IMG/VR virus record: IMGVR_UViG_3300025466_000136
Coordinates: 1 to 28,742 of that record
Reading direction: 5' to 3' (one strand)
Origin: a virus
DNA: 28,742 bases
Shown here: piece after piece, positions 4,763 to 23,925 of the stretch
How positions within the stretch are numbered: the first letter of the stretch is position 1
Layout: the number at the start of each line of letters is the position of its first letter
Position numbers and translations under genes: made by a program
The notes under the pieces: generated by a model
What the model saw: only the letters and a program-made list of their open reading frames with translations
The model's database searches: none
Told to the model about the DNA's origin: nothing

Positions 4763-4873
4763 GTGGCCTCTACGGCTGACCGTTACACCTGCGAATGGTG
4801 CAAGAAAGTCTATGTCGTAGCCTCTTTAGCCCGCCATTGCGAGCAAAAACATTTAAACTCAGAGGATGAGTAA
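4763..4873 (+). CDS. C2H2 zinc-finger mini-protein (36 aa)
   Basis: A 36-codon frame starting with GTG directly after the previous stop and ending 8 bases inside the next gene. The product contains YTCEWCKKVYVVASLARHCEQKH, which fits a C2H2 finger: C-x2-C-x11-H-x4-H with the usual aromatic and Leu positions between the Cys and His pairs. Single-finger C2H2 mini-proteins are rare in bacteria but occur in actinophages. It probably binds DNA, RNA or protein. The GTG start lacks a clear ribosome site, so it may depend on coupling. Confidence 0.6.
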   Translation: MASTADRYTCEWCKKVYVVASLARHCEQKHLNSEDE

Positions 4874-5375
4874 AAGAGCCATTGATTTAGAGCATGCTGA
4901 TGTTATCGGCGGCATGGTCAAGCAAAGTCTTTATCACAAAGCGTCTAAGGTAAAAAAGAAAGCTGCTGGTAAGGCTTCTGGTAAAAAAGATGAAAAACCA
5001 ACTAAAGCAGAAAAACCAACTAAATCAGAGAAGCCAACTAAATCAGAGAAGAAAGAAACCCCAACACAAACTTCTACGCCCCCTAACCCTAGTCCATCTA
5101 AGACTACCGAGACCCCTAAGCCTACCGCTAAGAAGACTTCTAAAAAAACTACTGAAAAGAAGTCATTCAAACCTGAGCCAGTAACTCGTGGCGACAACCC
5201 TACACACGCGATTAGTGCGGATACAGGCAAGCCTGTAAAGCTGTCTGAGGCTCATAAGAAGAATATTGATGCGTATAACGCGGGTAAGAGCTCTACTCCA
5301 GCGGTTAACCTAGAGGAAGGCATGTTCACGCCTCGCCAGTTCACCGTGACCGACAACCGTTCTAGCGCAAAATGA
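4866..5375 (+). CDS. Lysine-rich histone-H1-like protein
   Basis: A 169-aa protein with an ordered N-terminus (residues 1-28), a long basic disordered region (28-108) dominated by Lys, Thr, Pro and Ser, and a C-terminal tail (109-169). The basic part includes a five-residue repeat EKPTK(S/A) at 43-62 and SKKTTEKK-type runs, as in histone H1 tails and bacterial Lys-rich nucleoid proteins. Likely a DNA-condensing or internal virion protein; no enzyme motif. The next gene begins in an ATGA overlap with its stop. An antisense open frame here is a by-product of the repeats. Confidence 0.7.
   Translation: MSKRAIDLEHADVIGGMVKQSLYHKASKVKKKAAGKASGKKDEKPTKAEKPTKSEKPTKSEKKETPTQTSTPPNPSPSKTTETPKPTAKKTSKKTTEKKSFKPEPVTRGDNPTHAISADTGKPVKLSEAHKKNIDAYNAGKSSTPAVNLEEGMFTPRQFTVTDNRSSAK
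4992..5051 (+). repeat. 15-bp tandem coding repeat (EKPTK-S/A)
   Basis: Four tandem units of 15 bases encode EKPTKA, EKPTKS, EKPTKS and a last partial EK-type unit in the basic region of the histone-like protein. Codons differ among copies (gaaaaa against gagaag), so the repeat is not brand new. Confidence 0.6.
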
Positions 5376-5721: not shown

Positions 5722-6594
5722 ATGACAGCTACGTACCCAACACAGGTCAAAACCTTTAACACCCACAACACTCTTGATGTTATCAACGCGGGTGACCCAA
5801 ACGCTATTCAAGACGAGGTTGTTGCCCTTGAGAGCACTGTAGGGGCTAACCCTACCCTGTCTACCACCCCAGCCACTACGGGTTGGAACGGAACTTCATA
5901 CACTTATTCAACGGTAAGCGCTCGTATCGCCAACGTGGAGCTGGGCGTAGTCGGAGATTCTCATACTCAATACCTACGTAAGTCGGCGGATTCGGCTAAC
6001 GTTATCACCCCAAGCGCAAATAACATCAAGGCTGCTGTGTTCAAAGCTGCAAGCGGACAATCTGTAAACCTTGTTGAATTTCAAAACTCATCTGGAACAC
6101 CTGTCACCTATATTGATTCTAATGGTAACTTGCAGGGGTTCAGCGTATCTGGAACCATAACTATTGGCAGCACTGCCATTTCCCTTAATGGCACAGCCAC
6201 AACCATCGCTGGTTTGACGCTTACAGCGCCTGTGATTAATAACGGAACAATCAGCGGAGCTACTTACGTCACCCCTCCTAATAGCCAAACGGGAACGACT
6301 TACACAGCCGCGGCTATTGATGCCTATTCATTTACGCTTCTCAGCAACGCTGCAGCTATCGCGGTGACAATCCCGCAAAATAACTCTGGAACTAACGGTT
6401 TCGGAGCAGGAACACAGCTTAACTTTGCTCAAATGGGTGCGGGACAGGTGACCATCTCTGGTGGTACAGGGGTAACCCTTCTTTCTACTGCGGCCACCCC
6501 AGCAGCGCCTAAGCTTAGACTTCAGTACAGCGTTGCAACAGCTGTTCAAACAAACGTAGCCAATACCTGGATAGTCACGGGGGACATAGTTTAA
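5722..6594 (+). CDS. Tail fibre / receptor-binding protein
   Basis: A 290-aa protein with the texture of a phage fibre: low Cys and charge, high Thr/Ser/Asn/Gly. The N-terminal helix (residues 10-45, VINAGDPNAIQDEVVALESTV) would trimerise or attach. HTQYLRKSADSAN and VFKAASGQSVNLVEFQNSSG, then YIDSNGN, are typical of fibre shafts in which a SGQSxNLxEFQ strand pairs with a YIDSNGN turn. The rest is a beta-rich C-terminus with GTQLNFAQMGAGQVTISGG near 225-245, a pattern seen in C-terminal fibre knobs. GAAGGGA ribosome site; TAATG coupling to the next tail gene. Receptor binding is inferred from type and position. Confidence 0.75.
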   Translation: MTATYPTQVKTFNTHNTLDVINAGDPNAIQDEVVALESTVGANPTLSTTPATTGWNGTSYTYSTVSARIANVELGVVGDSHTQYLRKSADSANVITPSANNIKAAVFKAASGQSVNLVEFQNSSGTPVTYIDSNGNLQGFSVSGTITIGSTAISLNGTATTIAGLTLTAPVINNGTISGATYVTPPNSQTGTTYTAAAIDAYSFTLLSNAAAIAVTIPQNNSGTNGFGAGTQLNFAQMGAGQVTISGGTGVTLLSTAATPAAPKLRLQYSVATAVQTNVANTWIVTGDIV

Positions 6595-7592
6595 TGCCTA
6601 ATTTCTTTGGGATTGTAGCTTCGTCTCTTGCTAAAGCTTTAGCGAGCGTGTTAGACACGTTTAACAGAGCTAATAATGCGTCTTCTTTGGGAACCGCTGA
6701 TAATACGGTCGCCCCTACGGGTTCTTGGTCTGTTATTAGAGGCTCCTGGGGAATCGCGTCTAACGCCGCTAATAGTTCTACCGCCGCTTCTTCCTACCCG
6801 CTAGCTACGCTTAACTTTCAAAGTAATACAGTAACCTTAGGCGTAGATAACATCGGTCCAGGTGCTGGTACCGCTTTTTGGGTCACTGATTCTGGAACTT
6901 GGTGGGCTACTTATGTAGACGCCACACGGTCGTGCTCAACATGCTACAACGGTTCTAATCCAAACTACACTACTTGCTACAACGGCTCTAACCCTGTGTA
7001 CGGTACCTGTTATAACGGCTCTAACCCAATCAATGGAACTTGTTATAACACATCTAACCCAATTAATGGAACTTGCTATAACCCGCCTAACTACGGCACC
7101 AATACTTGTATTAACATCGGATACTGCTATAACGGAAACGCTTACACCTGTGTTACTGGGTATAACACAGCTAACCCTTACACGTGTGTTACGGGCTACA
7201 ACACGTCTAACCCTTATACGTGTATAAAAAGCTATAACAGCTCAAACGCTTACACGTGCGTAGCTGGCTACAACACGTCTAACGCCTATAGCTGTAGCTG
7301 CGTTACTAACAACTCAGTCAATCTTATAAAGTCTATAGCTAGCACTATCAGCACCGTAGCTACTTTCACCATGACCGCCACAGTCTTAGGTCTAAAGACC
7401 CTAATAAATGGTGTGACAGGGGTCATCACTGTGCGTGGGTATTCCACAACAGGATACACTACTCAAATTGGAACAGACCAAACAGCTACCGCTACAGGGT
7501 TTACCGCCAAAAATACCCATGGTATTATCCTCGGACCAACTACGTATAGCGCGGCTCAAACCGCTAATATTGACAACTTCCAAGTTAACTAA
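6594..7592 (+). CDS. Jelly-roll tail protein with inserted Cys-rich repeat
   Basis: A 332-aa protein in three parts. Residues 20-112 (DTFNRANNASSLGTAD, then SWSVIRGSWGIASN, then WWATYVDAT) look like the first half of a concanavalin/LamG-like jelly roll. Residues 113-237 are a repeat with 14 cysteines. Residues 240-332 (TFTMTATVLGLKTLINGVTG, GTDQTATATGFTAK, IDNFQVN) look like the second half of the same fold, including its usual closing DNFxV strand. The repeat thus seems inserted in a loop of one domain. It is coupled by TAATG to the upstream fibre gene and lies in the tail block. Probable role: host-surface adhesion, with the Cys region as a disulphide- or metal-braced spike. Confidence 0.8.
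   Translation: MPNFFGIVASSLAKALASVLDTFNRANNASSLGTADNTVAPTGSWSVIRGSWGIASNAANSSTAASSYPLATLNFQSNTVTLGVDNIGPGAGTAFWVTDSGTWWATYVDATRSCSTCYNGSNPNYTTCYNGSNPVYGTCYNGSNPINGTCYNTSNPINGTCYNPPNYGTNTCINIGYCYNGNAYTCVTGYNTANPYTCVTGYNTSNPYTCIKSYNSSNAYTCVAGYNTSNAYSCSCVTNNSVNLIKSIASTISTVATFTMTATVLGLKTLINGVTGVITVRGYSTTGYTTQIGTDQTATATGFTAKNTHGIILGPTTYSAAQTANIDNFQVN
6933..7301 (+). repeat. Tandem 33-bp then 36-bp Cys-rich coding repeat
   Basis: Cysteines 117, 128, 139, 150, 161 and 172 are exactly 11 residues apart, with unit C-Y-N-G-S-N-P-x-x-G-T. Cysteines 186, 198, 210, 222 and 234 are exactly 12 apart, with unit C-V-T-G-Y-N-T-S-N-P-Y-T. Both share the core YNxSNP. At the DNA level units differ at third positions, so repetition is kept by selection on protein or by older duplications. 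Confidence 0.85.
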
Positions 7593-7949: not shown

Positions 7950-8714
7950 ATGAAGAAGGTAAACTTCTTACTTGACCGACACTACTCGTTGCCTATAACT
8001 AGCCCAGTACCCGCCTCATCCTTGCTGCCTAAATGGCACCGTGAGGGGGAGATGTACATAAATAAAAATACAGGGCTTTTGCATATAGCGGATGAGTCGG
8101 AACGTGCGGCTGGAATGCGCTTGTGTATGCCTTTCTTTGACTCTTTAAGCTCAGGGTTTTTCCTTACTACTTGGGCTGACATAGAGATAACTAGAAATGA
8201 TGGACTTGCTATAGAGTGGCAGTACATTGAAAAAAATGTTAAAGGTGTTTGGATTAAAGCAAAAGATGATTGGGATATAGTAAAAGAGCGTCAAGGAGAT
8301 ATTGGCTACACAATCCCTAGACCTGCTGGTCACGCCACTAACCACATGGTGTGGAACTCTAGGTGGGGTTGGCGCCTCCCTAAAGGTTGGAGCATGCTTG
8401 TTACTCACCCTCTAAACCAACATCAATTACCGTTTACTACTTTATCCGCGATTGTAGACAGCGATAGATTTGCTTCTCATGGAAACATACCTTTCTTCCT
8501 GCGTGAAGGCTGGACAGGGATTATTGAGAAGGGGACACCCTTTGCCCAACTAATTCCTATTAAGCGCTCTGATTGGTTTATTGATACAAAAATTCAAGAT
8601 GAAGAGGCGCTGTTTACTGCCCGTAGCGCTAGAGAAGTTTCTTATGGTTATTATCGGTCTAAATTATGGGTGCCAAAAAAATACAAAAAGGAAGACAAAA
8701 ATGGGTCTATTTAA
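7950..8714 (+). CDS. Conserved phage protein, DUF6065-like, first of tandem pair
   Basis: A 254-aa protein. The C-terminal part carries a string of landmarks: GWRLPKGWSMLVTHPLNQ, LPFTTLSAIVDSDRF, IPFFLREGWTGIIEKGTPFAQLIPIKRSDW. The order G-W-x-(V/L)-x-x-x-HP(L/V)N, then LSxxVDxD, then a hydrophobic strand, then KGTPxxQxIPxKRxDW is shared with the next gene and resembles the DUF6065 family, which has no known function. The N-terminal 60 residues contain SSLLPKWHREGE, matching VIPDWYKDLAPRR next door. GGAGCAC lies before the ATG. Probably cytosolic; not an obvious virion protein. Confidence 0.7.
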   Translation: MKKVNFLLDRHYSLPITSPVPASSLLPKWHREGEMYINKNTGLLHIADESERAAGMRLCMPFFDSLSSGFFLTTWADIEITRNDGLAIEWQYIEKNVKGVWIKAKDDWDIVKERQGDIGYTIPRPAGHATNHMVWNSRWGWRLPKGWSMLVTHPLNQHQLPFTTLSAIVDSDRFASHGNIPFFLREGWTGIIEKGTPFAQLIPIKRSDWFIDTKIQDEEALFTARSAREVSYGYYRSKLWVPKKYKKEDKNGSI

Positions 8715-9498
8715 GAAGTCTAAGTGGGACAAGCGCTCTTCTGCTGACCCTTCAGATTTGGGAACTATTGACTTTTTATTAACTGAAACAGATGAGAGTA
8801 CTTCTTACGTAGAAGTTAAAAAGGCCATTGAAGTTATACCTGACTGGTATAAAGATTTAGCGCCCAGGCGCATAATTAGAGAGGGAGACCTAAAAGACGA
8901 CTTTACTATTAAGCGCTGCATTCCAGTCTTAGACGCGCTTACTACTGGTTACTATCTAGTTACTAAGTACGATATCACTTTTAAATATGACGAGGAACGG
9001 GGTTGGTGTGATTTAGAGGGTAACTTCAACCCCAATAAGCCAGAGGTTAGCATGCACCCTGTGCAACAACTAGGTAGCATGCCTTTTAGTCCAGAGTTTT
9101 CTAAGTATGCTTATAAATGGGATAACCCCTTCACCATTAAAACTCCTCCTGGTTATAGCGTCATGTTTACGCACCCAGTAAACGCCCCATATCTTCCCTT
9201 CTACACGCTAAGCGGCGTTGTAGACACAGATATGTATTTTCAACCTGTACTGTTCCCCTTCTTATCCAAAAATAACTTTAACGGCGTACTGCCCGCTGGA
9301 ACACCTATTGTTCAAATTATCCCCTTCAAAAGAGATGATTGGAAGTCTGAGGTCTACACAGATGGGATGTCCAGGGAGTACGTACTCAACAGAAGTCAAA
9401 TTAGTGAGGCTTATGAGAGCCAAAGGTACGATAAAGACGGCAATGCCATGGGTGGTATGTACAAAAGGGACTACCGTAAAAAGAAAAAGTATTTATAA
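8701..9498 (+). CDS. Conserved phage protein, DUF6065-like, second of tandem pair
   Basis: A 265-aa protein, tandem paralogue of the gene before. The start is set at the ATG at 8701 (MGLFKKSKWDKRSS), with AAGGAAG a few bases upstream. A longer open frame extends upstream but lies over the previous gene. Matching landmarks: GYSVMFTHPVNA, LSGVVDTDMYF, LPAGTPIVQIIPFKRDDW. HP(V/L)N, VDxD and the GTPxxQxIPxKRxDW box are strictly kept in both copies and are candidates for the active or binding site. The gene overlaps the previous one by 14 bases. Function unknown. Confidence 0.75.
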   Translation: MGLFKKSKWDKRSSADPSDLGTIDFLLTETDESTSYVEVKKAIEVIPDWYKDLAPRRIIREGDLKDDFTIKRCIPVLDALTTGYYLVTKYDITFKYDEERGWCDLEGNFNPNKPEVSMHPVQQLGSMPFSPEFSKYAYKWDNPFTIKTPPGYSVMFTHPVNAPYLPFYTLSGVVDTDMYFQPVLFPFLSKNNFNGVLPAGTPIVQIIPFKRDDWKSEVYTDGMSREYVLNRSQISEAYESQRYDKDGNAMGGMYKRDYRKKKKYL

Positions 9499-17942: not shown

Positions 17943-20288
17943 ATGGAACACTTAATAGACGAAGAAGACGAAGAGTTTGACCCCGAGATTGAGGGCGAAC
18001 CCGCTCCTGAAGAACAGGAGGATGAGCTTGACGAGCTTTCTAAAGAGTTTGTAAAGAAGCTCATTGACCGTTGCATCCAATTTATGGATGCCCTTGTAGG
18101 CGTAGACGACGGTGAAGAACACGCTCTTCGCCCCTACCAACTACCTCTTGCCCGACGCATCATTGAGTCTGTAATCATCAATGACGGTGAGGAAATCACA
18201 GCTCTGGCCGCTCGTCAGTCAGGCAAATCAGAAACTATTGCTAATACAGTAGCTACTCTAATGGTACTTCTACCTCGCTTAGCAAAGATGTACCCAGACC
18301 TGCTAGGCAAGTATAAACATGGCCTTTGGGTAGGTATGTTTGCTCCAGTTGAGACTCAGGCTGAAACTTTGTTTGGTCGTACCGTCAACCGCTTAACATC
18401 TGAGCGCGCCTTGGAGGTTCTGGGTGACCCAGAGATTGACGACAGTTTAGGTAAGGTCCCTGGGGTAAAGCGCCAAATCAAATTGAAGAACTCGGGCTCT
18501 CGTATTGTAATGATGACTGCGAACCCACGAGCTAAAATTGAATCAGAATCGTTCCATCTGGTAGTTATTGATGAGTGCCAAGAAGCTGATGATTTTATCG
18601 TTTCTAAATCTATTTCCCCTATGTTGGCTGCATATAACGGAACTATGATTAAAACAGGTACTCCAACCACCCATAAGAACAACTTCTACAAGGCCATACA
18701 GTTTAATAAGCGTAGGCAGACCGCGCGTAACCGCCAGAACCACTTTCAATGGGATTACAAAGATGTTTCTAAGGTTAGCGCTAACTATGGCAAATACATT
18801 AAAAAAGAGATGCTCCGTATCGGTGAAGACTCTGATGAATTCCAGATGAGTTACAACTGCCTTACTCCAGACACCAAGGTACTTACTGGAGACTTGCGAT
18901 ATGTAGAAATAGGCTCAGTACAGGTAGGGGATATTTTAGTAGGCTTTGACGAGGAAACTCAAACAAAGGGCGCACATCGTAAGATACGTGAAACTACTGT
19001 AATTAAAGCGGAACGCATCTTTCGTCCTACCTATGAGATTGCGTTATCTGATGGCACTGTGGTTAAGGCTTCTGACGGTCATTTATGGCTAGTATCAACC
19101 GCAGGTCGTCGCACCGTATGGAAGCGCACGGACGAGCTAACTTCCACCGACTGTATATTTAAAATCTTTGATACGTGGAAGCACATTGAGGACTATCGCA
19201 CAGGTTACCTATCCGCAGCCTTTGACGGAGAAGGTCACTTCTCTCGGCAAGCAATGCTTGGGTTCTCTCAACGTGAAAACGTGATGCTTGGTAAAGTGCG
19301 AAAGTTCCTAGACGAATTAGGCTTTAAGTACTGGGAACGCCATGAGACTGGGACCAACAATGATGTGACGGTCCTTCATATTGCTGGTGGTCGAGCAGGG
19401 ATGTCTCGTTTCTTAGGGCAAATTCGTCCTGAGCGTTTACTTCAAAAAGTGGACCTTAATTCATTTGGCTCTATTGGTCGCCATGATTTTGTGGGGCAGG
19501 ACTTTGAGCACCCGCTAGTGCTATCGGTGACTTCTGTTGGAGAACAAGAAGTCGTTGCGCTTGAGACTACAACTCAAACTTTTATTGCAGAAGGCCTCGC
19601 GTCGCATAACTGTAAATGGCTTCTTGAACGAGGCATGTTCGTTACCTCTTCCGTTATGGATAACCTTGGCGATACCTCTATGGAGCTCCAACGCGCATGG
19701 CACCGTACCCCAGTAGTTGTAGGTATTGACCCAGCTCGTAAAATTGACTCTACAGTTGTAACGGTAGTGTGGGTTAACTGGGATACTCCAGATGAATTTG
19801 GGTACTACGACCACCGCGTACTTAACTGGCTTGAGCTTCAAGGAGATGACTGGGAAGACCAGTACTTCCAGATTGTTAAATTCTTAGAGGCCTACGACGT
19901 TATGTACGTGGGTGTAGACGCCAACGGTGTGGGTGACGCAGTTGCCCAGCGCTTAAAGCTTTTGCTACCTAGAGCTGAAGTATTTGCTGTAGGCAGTAGC
20001 CAACCAGAGCAGTCTAAGCGTTGGAAGCACCTAAAAGCTCTCATTGACCGCGAGCTCATTGGATGGCCTGCCCATGCTAAAACACGCAGATTGCGCACAT
20101 GGAAGCGCTTTTATCAACAGATGACTGACCTAGAAACTAAGTTCACTGGGCCTAACTTCTTGGCAAAAGCTCCTGATGAGGCACACGCCCATGACGACTA
20201 CGCAGACAGTCTGGCTATCGCCTGCGCTTTAACTTTAGATATGACACTGCCTCAAGTAGAGGTCTCTAGTTCACCATTCTTTAGATAA
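17943..20288 (+). CDS. terL: Terminase large subunit, interrupted by an intein
   Basis: The 781-aa precursor is the DNA-packaging motor, about 530 aa after splicing. N-terminal ATPase: Walker A variant ARQSGKSE (90-97), Walker B LVVIDE (206-211), coupling motif TGTP (239-242). Intein: residues 306-556. C-terminal RNase-H-like nuclease: Asp596 (VGIDPA), Asp659 (VGVDANG) and the D-rich HDDYADS (750-756) as the metal site. An acidic N-terminal 35 residues precede the ATPase. The extein join YN/CKW lies at the end of the ATPase and start of the nuclease link. No small terminase is seen upstream. It binds the portal during packaging. Confidence 0.95.
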   Translation: MEHLIDEEDEEFDPEIEGEPAPEEQEDELDELSKEFVKKLIDRCIQFMDALVGVDDGEEHALRPYQLPLARRIIESVIINDGEEITALAARQSGKSETIANTVATLMVLLPRLAKMYPDLLGKYKHGLWVGMFAPVETQAETLFGRTVNRLTSERALEVLGDPEIDDSLGKVPGVKRQIKLKNSGSRIVMMTANPRAKIESESFHLVVIDECQEADDFIVSKSISPMLAAYNGTMIKTGTPTTHKNNFYKAIQFNKRRQTARNRQNHFQWDYKDVSKVSANYGKYIKKEMLRIGEDSDEFQMSYNCLTPDTKVLTGDLRYVEIGSVQVGDILVGFDEETQTKGAHRKIRETTVIKAERIFRPTYEIALSDGTVVKASDGHLWLVSTAGRRTVWKRTDELTSTDCIFKIFDTWKHIEDYRTGYLSAAFDGEGHFSRQAMLGFSQRENVMLGKVRKFLDELGFKYWERHETGTNNDVTVLHIAGGRAGMSRFLGQIRPERLLQKVDLNSFGSIGRHDFVGQDFEHPLVLSVTSVGEQEVVALETTTQTFIAEGLASHNCKWLLERGMFVTSSVMDNLGDTSMELQRAWHRTPVVVGIDPARKIDSTVVTVVWVNWDTPDEFGYYDHRVLNWLELQGDDWEDQYFQIVKFLEAYDVMYVGVDANGVGDAVAQRLKLLLPRAEVFAVGSSQPEQSKRWKHLKALIDRELIGWPAHAKTRRLRTWKRFYQQMTDLETKFTGPNFLAKAPDEAHAHDDYADSLAIACALTLDMTLPQVEVSSSPFFR
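18858..19610 (+). mobile_element. Intein with LAGLIDADG nuclease in TerL
   Basis: 251 residues (306-556). Block A is CLTPDTKVLT starting at the nucleophile Cys306; block B ends in His380 (ASDGH, Ser in place of the usual Thr); the end is LASHN with +1 Cys557. A LAGLIDADG-type helix (GYLSAAFDGEG, 421-430) is clear, and a second such helix is not. GC and codon use match the extein. All splice residues are intact, so self-splicing is expected. Confidence 0.9.
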
Positions 20289-21207: not shown

Positions 21208-23925
21208 GTGAGCGGTATGGATTTCTCCCCACCGAGTTACCGCGCAGCATCCTCTGATTTAACCATCTCCATTTCTCCACTAGGACTAGTGGAATTGGCA
21301 GATGAAGAGTTTGAAGTACACGGTCCCCGCCTTAACCGTTACAGCCTTCAATGGGCTATGTACCTAGGCCACCACTACTCTTATCGTCGTCAAACAGGCG
21401 AAACCCAAATGATGCTCAACTATTACAGAGCATTCTCAGACTTTCTAATTAACTTTACATTCGGTAAGGGCGTTAACTTCCGTAGCCCTAAAGAGACCGA
21501 AGCTATTGTCCCAGACCTACTTGAGCGCGTATGGGAAGTAGATAACAATAAGGCTACTGTTCTATGGGAAATCGGACAACAAGGAACTGTCTCAGGCGAC
21601 TGCTTTATTAAAGTCGCTTACGAAGAGGCCTACGTAGACCCAGCTAGGCGTCAACACCCTGGACGAGTCCGCATCCTCCCTCTTAACTCTTCTTTCTGTT
21701 TCCCAGAGTTCCACCCCCATGACCGCGAACGTCTTGTGCGTTTTAAGCTCAAGTACAGATTTTGGGGTTGTGTAGACACTGAAACAGAAGCTCTAACACG
21801 CTCTGGGTGGAAGAGATATGATGAATTAGTTGATGGGGATGAAATTCTTACTCTTGACCCTAATACTGATGAAATCCAGTGGAAATCTGCTCTAATAAAT
21901 ATCTATGATTATTCAGGGCATATGGTTCAATGGTCTAATCACATCAATGCTGTCTCTACCCCTAATCATAGGTGGTTAGTCGAAAAACAAGTAGGTAGGA
22001 ATGACACCCTAGCTTATGAGAGACAAATCGCCCGTACAGAGATAGGAATAGATGGAGACCCAAGTATCTCGGACCTCCGAAATGGAAGTCGCATTATAGT
22101 AGGTGGTGGAACTCCACGGGCTTTTTCTACTACTAAAACGATAGAAGATGAAGTTGTAGAGACGTTAGCTTGGTACATATGTGAAGGAAATGACCATACA
22201 AACCAAAATGGATATCGTTCTGGGAGAATATCTCAAAGTTCTATAGTTTATCCAGAAAAGACAGAGCGTATCCGTACTCTTGCTAAATGGTGGAGGGATA
22301 CTAAAGGAGCCAGTTTCTCTGAGGGAGTTATTAAACCTCGCGGGGTTGTTGAATTTTATCTGGGTAAGGGTACTTTTGGAGTATTAGATACTTTGGCACC
22401 TAATAAAGAAATAACTCCAGAACTTATAACCAGTTTGACCGCAGAACAAGCATCTCTCTTTTATGAAACGCTATTAGATGCAGACGGTTGCAGAACCCAT
22501 GGAGATAAGAAAACTACCCGATGGACTCAATTAGATGCTGGTCGTAAGGATTCTTTCCAAATGCTGGCAGCTATGCTAGGTATTCGTTCTAATATCACAT
22601 CAGATAATGAAAAAGTACAGGTTTATAGTAAGAGACACATCCTCTCTGACTATACGTCAGCTAGTGCCCAAAGGGTATATTTAGAGGATGGAAAGATTTG
22701 GTGTCCTACAGTAGATGGTGGTATTTGGTTTGCCCGTAGAGAGGGGTCTACATATTGGACGGGTAATACATCACTAGAAGGCACACGTCAGGTGTTTACC
22801 TATACAGAAATCCTGACAGACGACGTAATTGAGGAATACATCAATGATGAGCTTATTGACTCCCGCCCTAATCCGCTCGGCACTATTCCTGTTATTCATA
22901 TTCCGAATGTTCGTATTAGTGGTAGCCCTTGGGGTCTCAGCGACTGCAACGACATTATTAACATTAATCGCGCTTATAATGAAACTGCCACTGATATTGC
23001 TGACATTGTTAACTATCACGCAGCGCCAGTTACGGTCATTATTGGAGCAAAGGCCTCACAACTAGAAAAGGGCGCCAACAAAGTATGGGGCGGACTTCCA
23101 AAAGACGCTCGCGTTGAGAACCTTGAAGGCGGAGCACAAGGACTAAAGGGAGCCATGGAGTTCATGGCTATGATGAAAAAGTCCATGCACGAGATGATTG
23201 GTGTTCCAGAGACTGCTCTTGGACAAGCACAACCTATCTCTAACACCTCAGGCGTTGCACTTTCTATTCAATTCCAGCCTTTGATGAACCGTTACCACCA
23301 GAAGATTATTCAGTACTCGCACGGACTAGAGCGTGTTAATGAGCTTATCCTCCTAAATCTTGCTCTAAAGGAACCTGAGACCTTTATTTGGGACCCTAAC
23401 TCAAGCACTACTCCGTTAAAGCAAGGTCAACTTGCACAGTTAGACGTTAACGACCCCCTTACTTTCCGTTCATATGTTCACTTCCCACAGCCACTCCCAC
23501 TAGACAAGCTGATTGCTCTTAACGAAATTCAATCTAAGTTGTCCCTTGGTCTTGAGTCTAAAGAGGGAGCGCTTCGCTCTCTTGGTGAAGAGTTCCCAGC
23601 AGAGAAGCTCACTGAAATTCGTCAAGAACTTCAAGATGATGCCCTTGCTGATGGCGCACTTAAACTTATTCAAACACAGATTGAGCAGGACATCCTGGCT
23701 CTTACAGGCGCACAGCCTGGTGCCGCTGGTGCTCCATCTACCCCAATGGGTGGTCCTGGAGCTCCTGGTGGAGATGTACCAATGACTCCTACTGAACCTG
23801 TCGTACTAGACGAGGCCACTATCGCCGCACAAATGGGTGACCAAGGCGTACGCGCCCGCCTCGTAACTGATGCTTACGGAACCAAACTCCCACAGAGAAG
23901 GGTCCCGCAAGACTACGAAAAATAA
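21208..23925 (+). CDS. Portal protein, interrupted by an intein
   Basis: The 905-aa precursor is the 12-fold head vertex protein through which DNA enters, about 572 aa after splicing. Extein marks: N-terminal YSLQWAMYLGHHYSY, NYYRAFSDFLINFTFGKG, a WEIGQQGTVSGDCFIKVAYE strand-helix, then after the intein IPVIHIPN, NINRAYNETATDIADIVNYHAAPV, IGVPETALGQAQPISNTSG, and a long C-terminal helix, all as in SPP1/HK97-type portals. The C-terminal 100 residues are Pro/Gly-rich. The intein occupies residues 188-520. GTG start with AGAGGTG upstream; ATG at 21217 is a possible alternative. Followed by the scaffold and capsid genes. Confidence 0.9.
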   Translation: MSGMDFSPPSYRAASSDLTISISPLGLVELADEEFEVHGPRLNRYSLQWAMYLGHHYSYRRQTGETQMMLNYYRAFSDFLINFTFGKGVNFRSPKETEAIVPDLLERVWEVDNNKATVLWEIGQQGTVSGDCFIKVAYEEAYVDPARRQHPGRVRILPLNSSFCFPEFHPHDRERLVRFKLKYRFWGCVDTETEALTRSGWKRYDELVDGDEILTLDPNTDEIQWKSALINIYDYSGHMVQWSNHINAVSTPNHRWLVEKQVGRNDTLAYERQIARTEIGIDGDPSISDLRNGSRIIVGGGTPRAFSTTKTIEDEVVETLAWYICEGNDHTNQNGYRSGRISQSSIVYPEKTERIRTLAKWWRDTKGASFSEGVIKPRGVVEFYLGKGTFGVLDTLAPNKEITPELITSLTAEQASLFYETLLDADGCRTHGDKKTTRWTQLDAGRKDSFQMLAAMLGIRSNITSDNEKVQVYSKRHILSDYTSASAQRVYLEDGKIWCPTVDGGIWFARREGSTYWTGNTSLEGTRQVFTYTEILTDDVIEEYINDELIDSRPNPLGTIPVIHIPNVRISGSPWGLSDCNDIININRAYNETATDIADIVNYHAAPVTVIIGAKASQLEKGANKVWGGLPKDARVENLEGGAQGLKGAMEFMAMMKKSMHEMIGVPETALGQAQPISNTSGVALSIQFQPLMNRYHQKIIQYSHGLERVNELILLNLALKEPETFIWDPNSSTTPLKQGQLAQLDVNDPLTFRSYVHFPQPLPLDKLIALNEIQSKLSLGLESKEGALRSLGEEFPAEKLTEIRQELQDDALADGALKLIQTQIEQDILALTGAQPGAAGAPSTPMGGPGAPGGDVPMTPTEPVVLDEATIAAQMGDQGVRARLVTDAYGTKLPQRRVPQDYEK
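21769..22767 (+). mobile_element. Intein with two LAGLIDADG motifs in portal
   Basis: 333 residues (188-520). Block A is CVDTETEALT (Cys188), block B TPNH (Thr251 to His254), homing helices ETLAWYICEGN (318-328) and LFYETLLDADG (417-427). The end reads IWCPTVDGG ... YWTGN, then +1 Thr521. The usual penultimate His is Gly519, as in a set of phage inteins ending TGN(S/T). Codon use is more A/T-ending than in the extein. Confidence 0.9.

Follow-up and report, generated by a model that had tools for sequence, protein, structure and literature searches.

Introduction

What kind of structure is formed by the regularly spaced cysteines of a putative phage tail protein, and what might it do for the virus? 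The question is raised by a gene at 6594..7592 on the plus strand of a viral DNA sequence of 28,742 nucleotides (IMG/VR record IMGVR_UViG_3300025466_000136, positions 1 to 28,742), the whole of which is referred to here as the window. A preliminary description of this gene read its cysteines as a loop insertion within a concanavalin/LamG-like domain, grown by unit duplication and projecting as a single disulphide- or metal-stacked rod. From the analysis reported here it appears likely that a hypervariable, probably disulphide-bonded antiparallel ladder extends one hairpin of a phage receptor-binding-type domain.

Genomic setting

The window comes from a bacterial virus of a lake in an uncultured-virus collection and, judging from its sequence matches, is part of an actinophage-type virus. 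The upstream gene (5722..6594, plus strand) is a structural gene; the last 100 residues of its product have PHROGs matches among minor tail and virion structural proteins of actinophages. This C-terminal domain, annotated elsewhere as minor tail protein, occurs in 197 phage records, of which 191 are from Gordonia phages. The terminase, intein aside, is nearest to Streptomyces phages such as BRock, genes for portal, major head and endolysin lie further along in the window, and in a syntenic relative (locus L082) a downstream protein has a tail-sheath-like start.

Several other features of the window were recorded. The terminase large subunit gene (17943-20288) contains an intein with a LAGLIDADG-like part at about residues 306-558, which is also present in mycobacteriophage terminases. 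The portal gene (21208-23925) is unusually long at 905 aa, and a second intein is suggested by matches of its residues 184-264 (approximately) to the PhoH-like and thymidylate synthase families of PHROG. Adjacent proteins encoded at 7950-8714 and 8581-9498 both belong to PHROG 7084, an apparent tandem duplication that is kept in L082, and a low-complexity Lys/Pro/Thr/Ser-rich protein with EKPTKSEKPTK repeats is encoded at 4866-5375.

The gene and its 14 cysteines

The ATG-initiated open reading frame at 6594..7592 encodes a tail adhesin-like protein of 332 aa, for which an AF2 model, structure matches and relatives point to a CBM66/concanavalin-like sandwich with an inserted cysteine ladder. 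Its cysteines are at residues 114, 117, 128, 139, 150, 161, 172, 178, 186, 198, 210, 222, 234 and 236, with successive gaps of 3, 11 (five times), 6, 8, 12 (four times) and 2, and none was found outside residues 114-236. The periodic cysteines of the preliminary description, six at spacing 11 (117-172) followed by five at spacing 12 (186-234), are real, and 200,000 random shufflings of the insert sequence never reproduced equal-spacing runs of at least five plus at least four. Cysteines 114, 178 and 236 had been left out of that description; their addition gives 14 = 7 + 7 in a mirror-symmetric arrangement, which is the key to the nature of the element. The YNxSNP core ascribed to every unit was overstated, being exact in four ascending units (YNGSNP three times and YNTSNP) and one descending unit (YNTSNP), while a further descending unit has YNTANP and the remainder have YNPPNY, YNSSNA and YNTSNA.

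On the basis of cysteine positions and the mirror analysis described below, the insert was divided into an ascending arm with seven cysteines (residues 114-172; 6933..7109, plus strand), a putative hairpin tip of the sequence INIGY between Cys172 and Cys178 (residues 173-177; 7110..7124, plus strand), and a descending arm with seven cysteines (residues 178-236; 7125..7301, plus strand), the last of these also supported by paired indels in relatives. Ascending gaps of 3 and five times 11 thus stand opposite descending gaps of 2, four times 12 and 8, and the distance between the conserved WW and Cys 114 is 10 residues, as is that between Cys 236 and a conserved Lys. Neither histidine nor any T4-type HxH motif is present in the insert (residues 113-238 for the composition). 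For the window protein alone the mirror test gave p-values of 0.09 on spacings and 0.02 on cumulative positions; these are modest because its two arms are almost uniform, and the case for the window therefore rests on the family.

The carrier domain and the register of the hairpin

An AF2 model of the window protein was built from a 42-row alignment. Its flanks have pLDDT values mostly of 86-96, with 86-89 over residues 71-110, about 90-96 over residues 241-310 of the C-terminal flank and 65-83 beyond, while the insert is left unresolved at pLDDT <50 over residues 124-227. In this model, both flanks fold as one CBM66/concanavalin-like two-sheet sandwich. The N-terminal half (residues 20-112; 6651..6929, plus strand) ends in the conserved strand FWVTDSGTWW and was kept in 137 ORFs detected with an HMM; the C-terminal half (residues 237-332; 7302..7589, plus strand) begins with the strand SVNLIKSIAST and is conserved in 133 ORFs.

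With the insert excluded (residues 24-332), the best fold match was CBM66 of Bacillus subtilis (PDB 4b1m, 4azz), with a Z score of 16.4 and 2.6 A over 149 residues at about 13% identity, followed by the C-terminal domain of the Douge central fibre (Z 15.9, 167 residues aligned, 8zdp residues 689-875) and the receptor-binding domain of TM4 gp23 (Z 14.2). Searches of the whole protein or the joined flanks against Pfam LamG, lectin and CBM profiles gave no match, so that a similarity of fold is proposed here and family membership is not claimed. CBM66 lacks a cysteine ladder, and its likeness to the window protein is one of fold. The Douge gp20 domain (PDB 8zdp/8zdq; PMC13033339) shares both the sandwich fold of the window flanks and an actinophage tail setting, but it has no large cysteine insert that could be aligned and ends a long fibre protein, whereas the window domain is a separate protein of 332 aa. 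The earlier placement of the insertion within one concanavalin/LamG-like sandwich is thus borne out.

The two modelled strands that flank the insert, at residues 101-109 and 240-248, follow the relation i+j = 349, and the sums of the proposed cysteine pairs are 347-351. This shared register suggests that the ladder continues a hairpin of the sandwich, and from their equal length and register the two strands are predicted to be directly adjacent. In an AF2 model of relative L197, the insert of which is likewise unresolved, low-confidence tip strands at 130-134 and 150-154 (i+j = 284) lie on the cysteine register of 284-286.

Collection and diversity of relatives

Neither the whole protein nor the flanks could be assigned to a family by direct searches of Pfam, PHROGs, PDB sequences and a phage collection, and back-translated repeat patterns had no match in viral contigs. 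The insert matched no named family, and the preliminary description likewise knew of none with its double period. Loci were instead gathered through the terminase and one neighbouring gene, which led to proteins with both flanks and quite different cysteine-rich inserts, and a joined-flank profile was then used to obtain relatives from two scans of viral contigs of uncultured phages. Both flanks were found in 133 ORFs with 80 distinct inserts, which form 53 clusters at <60% identity. The best BFVD matches were uncultured Caudovirales proteins in UniProt (E down to 1e-15), of which the uncharacterised A0A6J7WYT9 and A0A6J5RDN1 probably belong to the same family as the window protein. A scan of GTDB genomes with the flank profile gave no relative, and hence no host can be read from prophages.

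Inserts range from 14 residues without cysteine (L085, L087) to 491 residues with 36 cysteines (L147), and the cysteine number per insert from 0 to 50, the highest being that of L203; the largest relatives would have up to about 25 candidate rungs and about 230 residues per arm. The 14-residue loop of L085 and L087 is a natural empty site, in agreement with the proposed loop insertion. Unit number, which the preliminary description had proposed to compare among related phages, differs among them, and the element is variable as had been suspected: pairs with flank identity of 0.7-0.8 have a mean insert identity of 0.53 and a cysteine difference of 6.5. Inserts are rich in Thr, Ser, Gly, Tyr and Asn, charged residues are rare, and His makes up 0.4% of the residues. 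In five relatives (L082, L037, L031, L130 and L136) a KVGGxWK-type domain, which the window protein lacks, precedes the sandwich.

Cysteine periods across the relatives are roughly 4-18, with arm period pairs of about 4/5, 5/5, 7/7, 9/9, 10/10, 12/12, 13/12 and 17/16. The double period that had been pointed out in the window is present, but it is one of many and does not consist of two stacked blocks; in every clear case the two arms agree in period. An offset of one residue between the arms, as in the window, is common (L157 13/12, L092 4/5, L147 17/16).

Even parity and mirror symmetry

The number of cysteines is even in all 80 distinct inserts and in 53 of 53 clusters. Other residues of the same inserts were used as the parity control, and for Y, N, S, T, G, A, P, Q and V an even count was seen in 24-34 of 53 clusters, close to one in two; this control replaced other cysteine-bearing ORFs, a small set of mostly homologous terminases (even/odd 18/5 and 7/4).

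Spacings mirrored to within 1 residue make up a fraction of 0.495 when each insert is reflected about its true centre, and of 0.26-0.31 when the centre is displaced by 1-4 cysteines (43 clusters). Fisher p-values were 6e-10 for spacing and 4e-13 for cumulative position, values not to be taken literally since the clusters share ancestry and their independence is overstated. The distance from the sandwich to the first cysteine agreed to within 2 residues with that from the last cysteine to the sandwich in 51% of 39 clusters, compared with 24% after permutation. The clearest single case is L147, in which 17 aperiodic spacings of the ascending arm (17,17,17,14,18,18,9,12,9,12,21,13,11,10,13,13,9) recur on the descending arm in the opposite order, with no deviation larger than 1 residue (read reversed: 16,16,16,14,19,19,10,11,10,11,21,13,11,9,14,13,9). 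A reversed-order mirror of aperiodic spacings is also present in L144, and in L199 vicinal CC nodes (spacing 9, 11) stand opposite CxxC nodes (spacing 9, 11) on the other arm. Such reversed order cannot be produced by simple unit duplication.

Roughly 10 of the 48 testable clusters lack mirror symmetry (among them L095, L103, L126, L143, L088, L102 and L117). Repeated CCSGV-type units with an even cysteine number and no mirror symmetry were observed in L095, L103, L105, L126 and L143. These even but unmirrored inserts suggest that a second disulphide arrangement may exist on the same carrier, and the non-mirrored clusters probably have other disulphide arrangements.

Paired changes in both arms

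Closely related inserts with unequal cysteine numbers were compared, and pairs below about 0.55 insert identity, which represent unrelated subfamilies, were left out of the counts. At insert identity >=0.55, 11 of 11 such pairs differ equally in both arms. In L208 and L211, the inserts of which are 88% identical, 22 aa with 5 cysteines are deleted in one arm and 18 aa with 5 cysteines at the mirror place, and both deletions are visible in the DNA as well. Growth by unit duplication, as first proposed, is therefore insufficient by itself, because the paired deletions show that both arms must change jointly. The loss of odd numbers of cysteines per arm (5+5, 1+1) excludes pairing within an arm. 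Taken together, parity, mirrored spacings and paired changes indicate that Cys i on one arm is paired with Cys N+1-i (15-i in the window) on an antiparallel second arm, and a ladder topology is well supported. The window pairs would be 114-236, 117-234, 128-222, 139-210, 150-198, 161-186 and 172-178. The change of period, which had been read as a new type of unit along one rod, marks instead the turn of a hairpin with 11 residues per rung on the way up and 12 on the way down. The first interpretation as a whole is partly supported.

Proposed structure and alternatives

In the proposed structure, one beta-hairpin of a CBM66/concanavalin-like sandwich would be lengthened into a two-arm antiparallel ladder, each rung of which would be formed by Cys i of the ascending and Cys N+1-i of the descending arm. 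The window would have seven rungs, separated by segments of 11 residues in the ascending and 12 in the descending arm and ending in a tip of 5 residues. At 3.3 A per residue, a fully extended ladder would measure at most about 19 nm in the window and about 77 nm in L147. Disulphides are the simplest rungs, given cysteine counts that are always even, an almost complete lack of His and few charged residues, and the disulphide linkage that the preliminary description had considered is probable. The bonds would most likely close once the virion has left the reducing cytoplasm, which would give a stiff, protease-resistant ribbon. The inter-rung segments, rich in Tyr, Ser, Thr, Asn and Gly, and the tip would then form a variable, exposed surface in contact with the host. 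Length and spacing would be free to change provided that both arms follow, and the adhesin could diversify while the sandwich stays constant. A role in receptor binding is suggested by the fold of the carrier and by how variable the insert is; the CBM-like domains of Douge bind the mycobacterial surface (PMC13033339).

The ladder could be correct and its role structural, as a rigid spacer, a protease shield or a clamp between tail parts, with receptor binding left to the sandwich or to another part. Of sandwich and ladder, only the former resembles structures that are known to bind hosts, and disulphide networks do occur in virions, the tail of phage Milano being locked by them (PMC10811340). 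The extreme variability of the inserts on conserved flanks is the pattern of a host contact and not of a fixed spacer, which makes a purely structural role rather unlikely.

A change in chemistry appears more doubtful still, namely that paired cysteines on the same antiparallel arms hold Zn, Fe or Fe-S, possibly with six cysteines per layer in a trimer. Even parity and mirror pairing fit a metal ladder equally well, its base in the window would have C-x2-C opposite C-x-C (Cys 114/117 and 234/236), and CC nodes opposite CxxC nodes recur along the ladder in L199 and L203. The scarcity of His and of charged residues speaks against it, as do most rungs having one cysteine per arm at long spacing; an exchange of Cys for His is not evident. 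The needle of the T4 long tail fibre protein gp37 is an intertwined trimer in which His-x-His rungs hold iron. Its tip resembles the window element as a long up-and-down receptor-binding hairpin held by regular ligand pairs, but the window insert has paired cysteines and lacks the HxH motifs. Metal rungs may occur, chiefly at the base (CxxC opposite CxC) and in the CC/CxxC subfamily.

A rod or solenoid running in a single direction, with each 11/12-residue unit as a coil, cysteines stacked or bonded i to i+1 and the period change as a change of unit type, is very improbable: the units are locally regular and insect antifreeze proteins have 12-residue cysteine-bearing coils, but those beta-solenoids carry two cysteines per coil with the disulphide within the coil whereas the window insert has one per unit, the seven cysteines of each window arm cannot all pair within that arm, and neither the reversed mirror of aperiodic spacings (L147, L144), nor the centre-specific register, nor the mirrored deletions of odd cysteine numbers (5+5, 1+1) are predicted.

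Comparison of the cysteine ladder with known elements

Mirror-placed cysteines on antiparallel arms, the arrangement of a cystine ladder, were found in the family and in the window (7+7). Theta-defensins are cyclic peptides of 18 residues with three rungs. They and the beta-hairpin antimicrobial peptides share antiparallel strands joined by mirror-placed cysteine pairs, while the window ladder is internal to a 332-aa chain, is not cyclic, has longer spacing and has relatives with many more candidate rungs. Bovine ultralong CDR-H3 (PMC8602281) is similarly a hypervariable cysteine-rich hairpin extension from a conserved sandwich, borne on a stalk, but its stalk ends in a small disulphide knob, it has no ladder and its origin is unrelated. 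No description of an element such as that of the window was found in open-licence papers. There is about an even chance that it represents an undescribed class of hypervariable recognition element, in which an antiparallel cystine ladder of open-ended size stands on a conserved sandwich. Length, rung spacing and loops would then be free to evolve provided that both arms change together, and the element would be to phages what an antibody loop is elsewhere, stapled by disulphides.

Significance

Through mirror order, even parity and compensating deletions, the pairing of up to 50 cysteines can be read from sequence, and a hypervariable region whose topology could not otherwise be predicted is thereby made directly testable. 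The paired changes also make one ask by what route rungs are gained and lost in step on two arms that lie far apart in the gene. With disulphide rungs, stiff, cystine-stapled probes would be borne by many uncultured freshwater phages. Such probes would offer a natural library of scaffolds for binding surfaces, and they would hint at the way in which these phages recognise hosts that have yet to be grown together with them.
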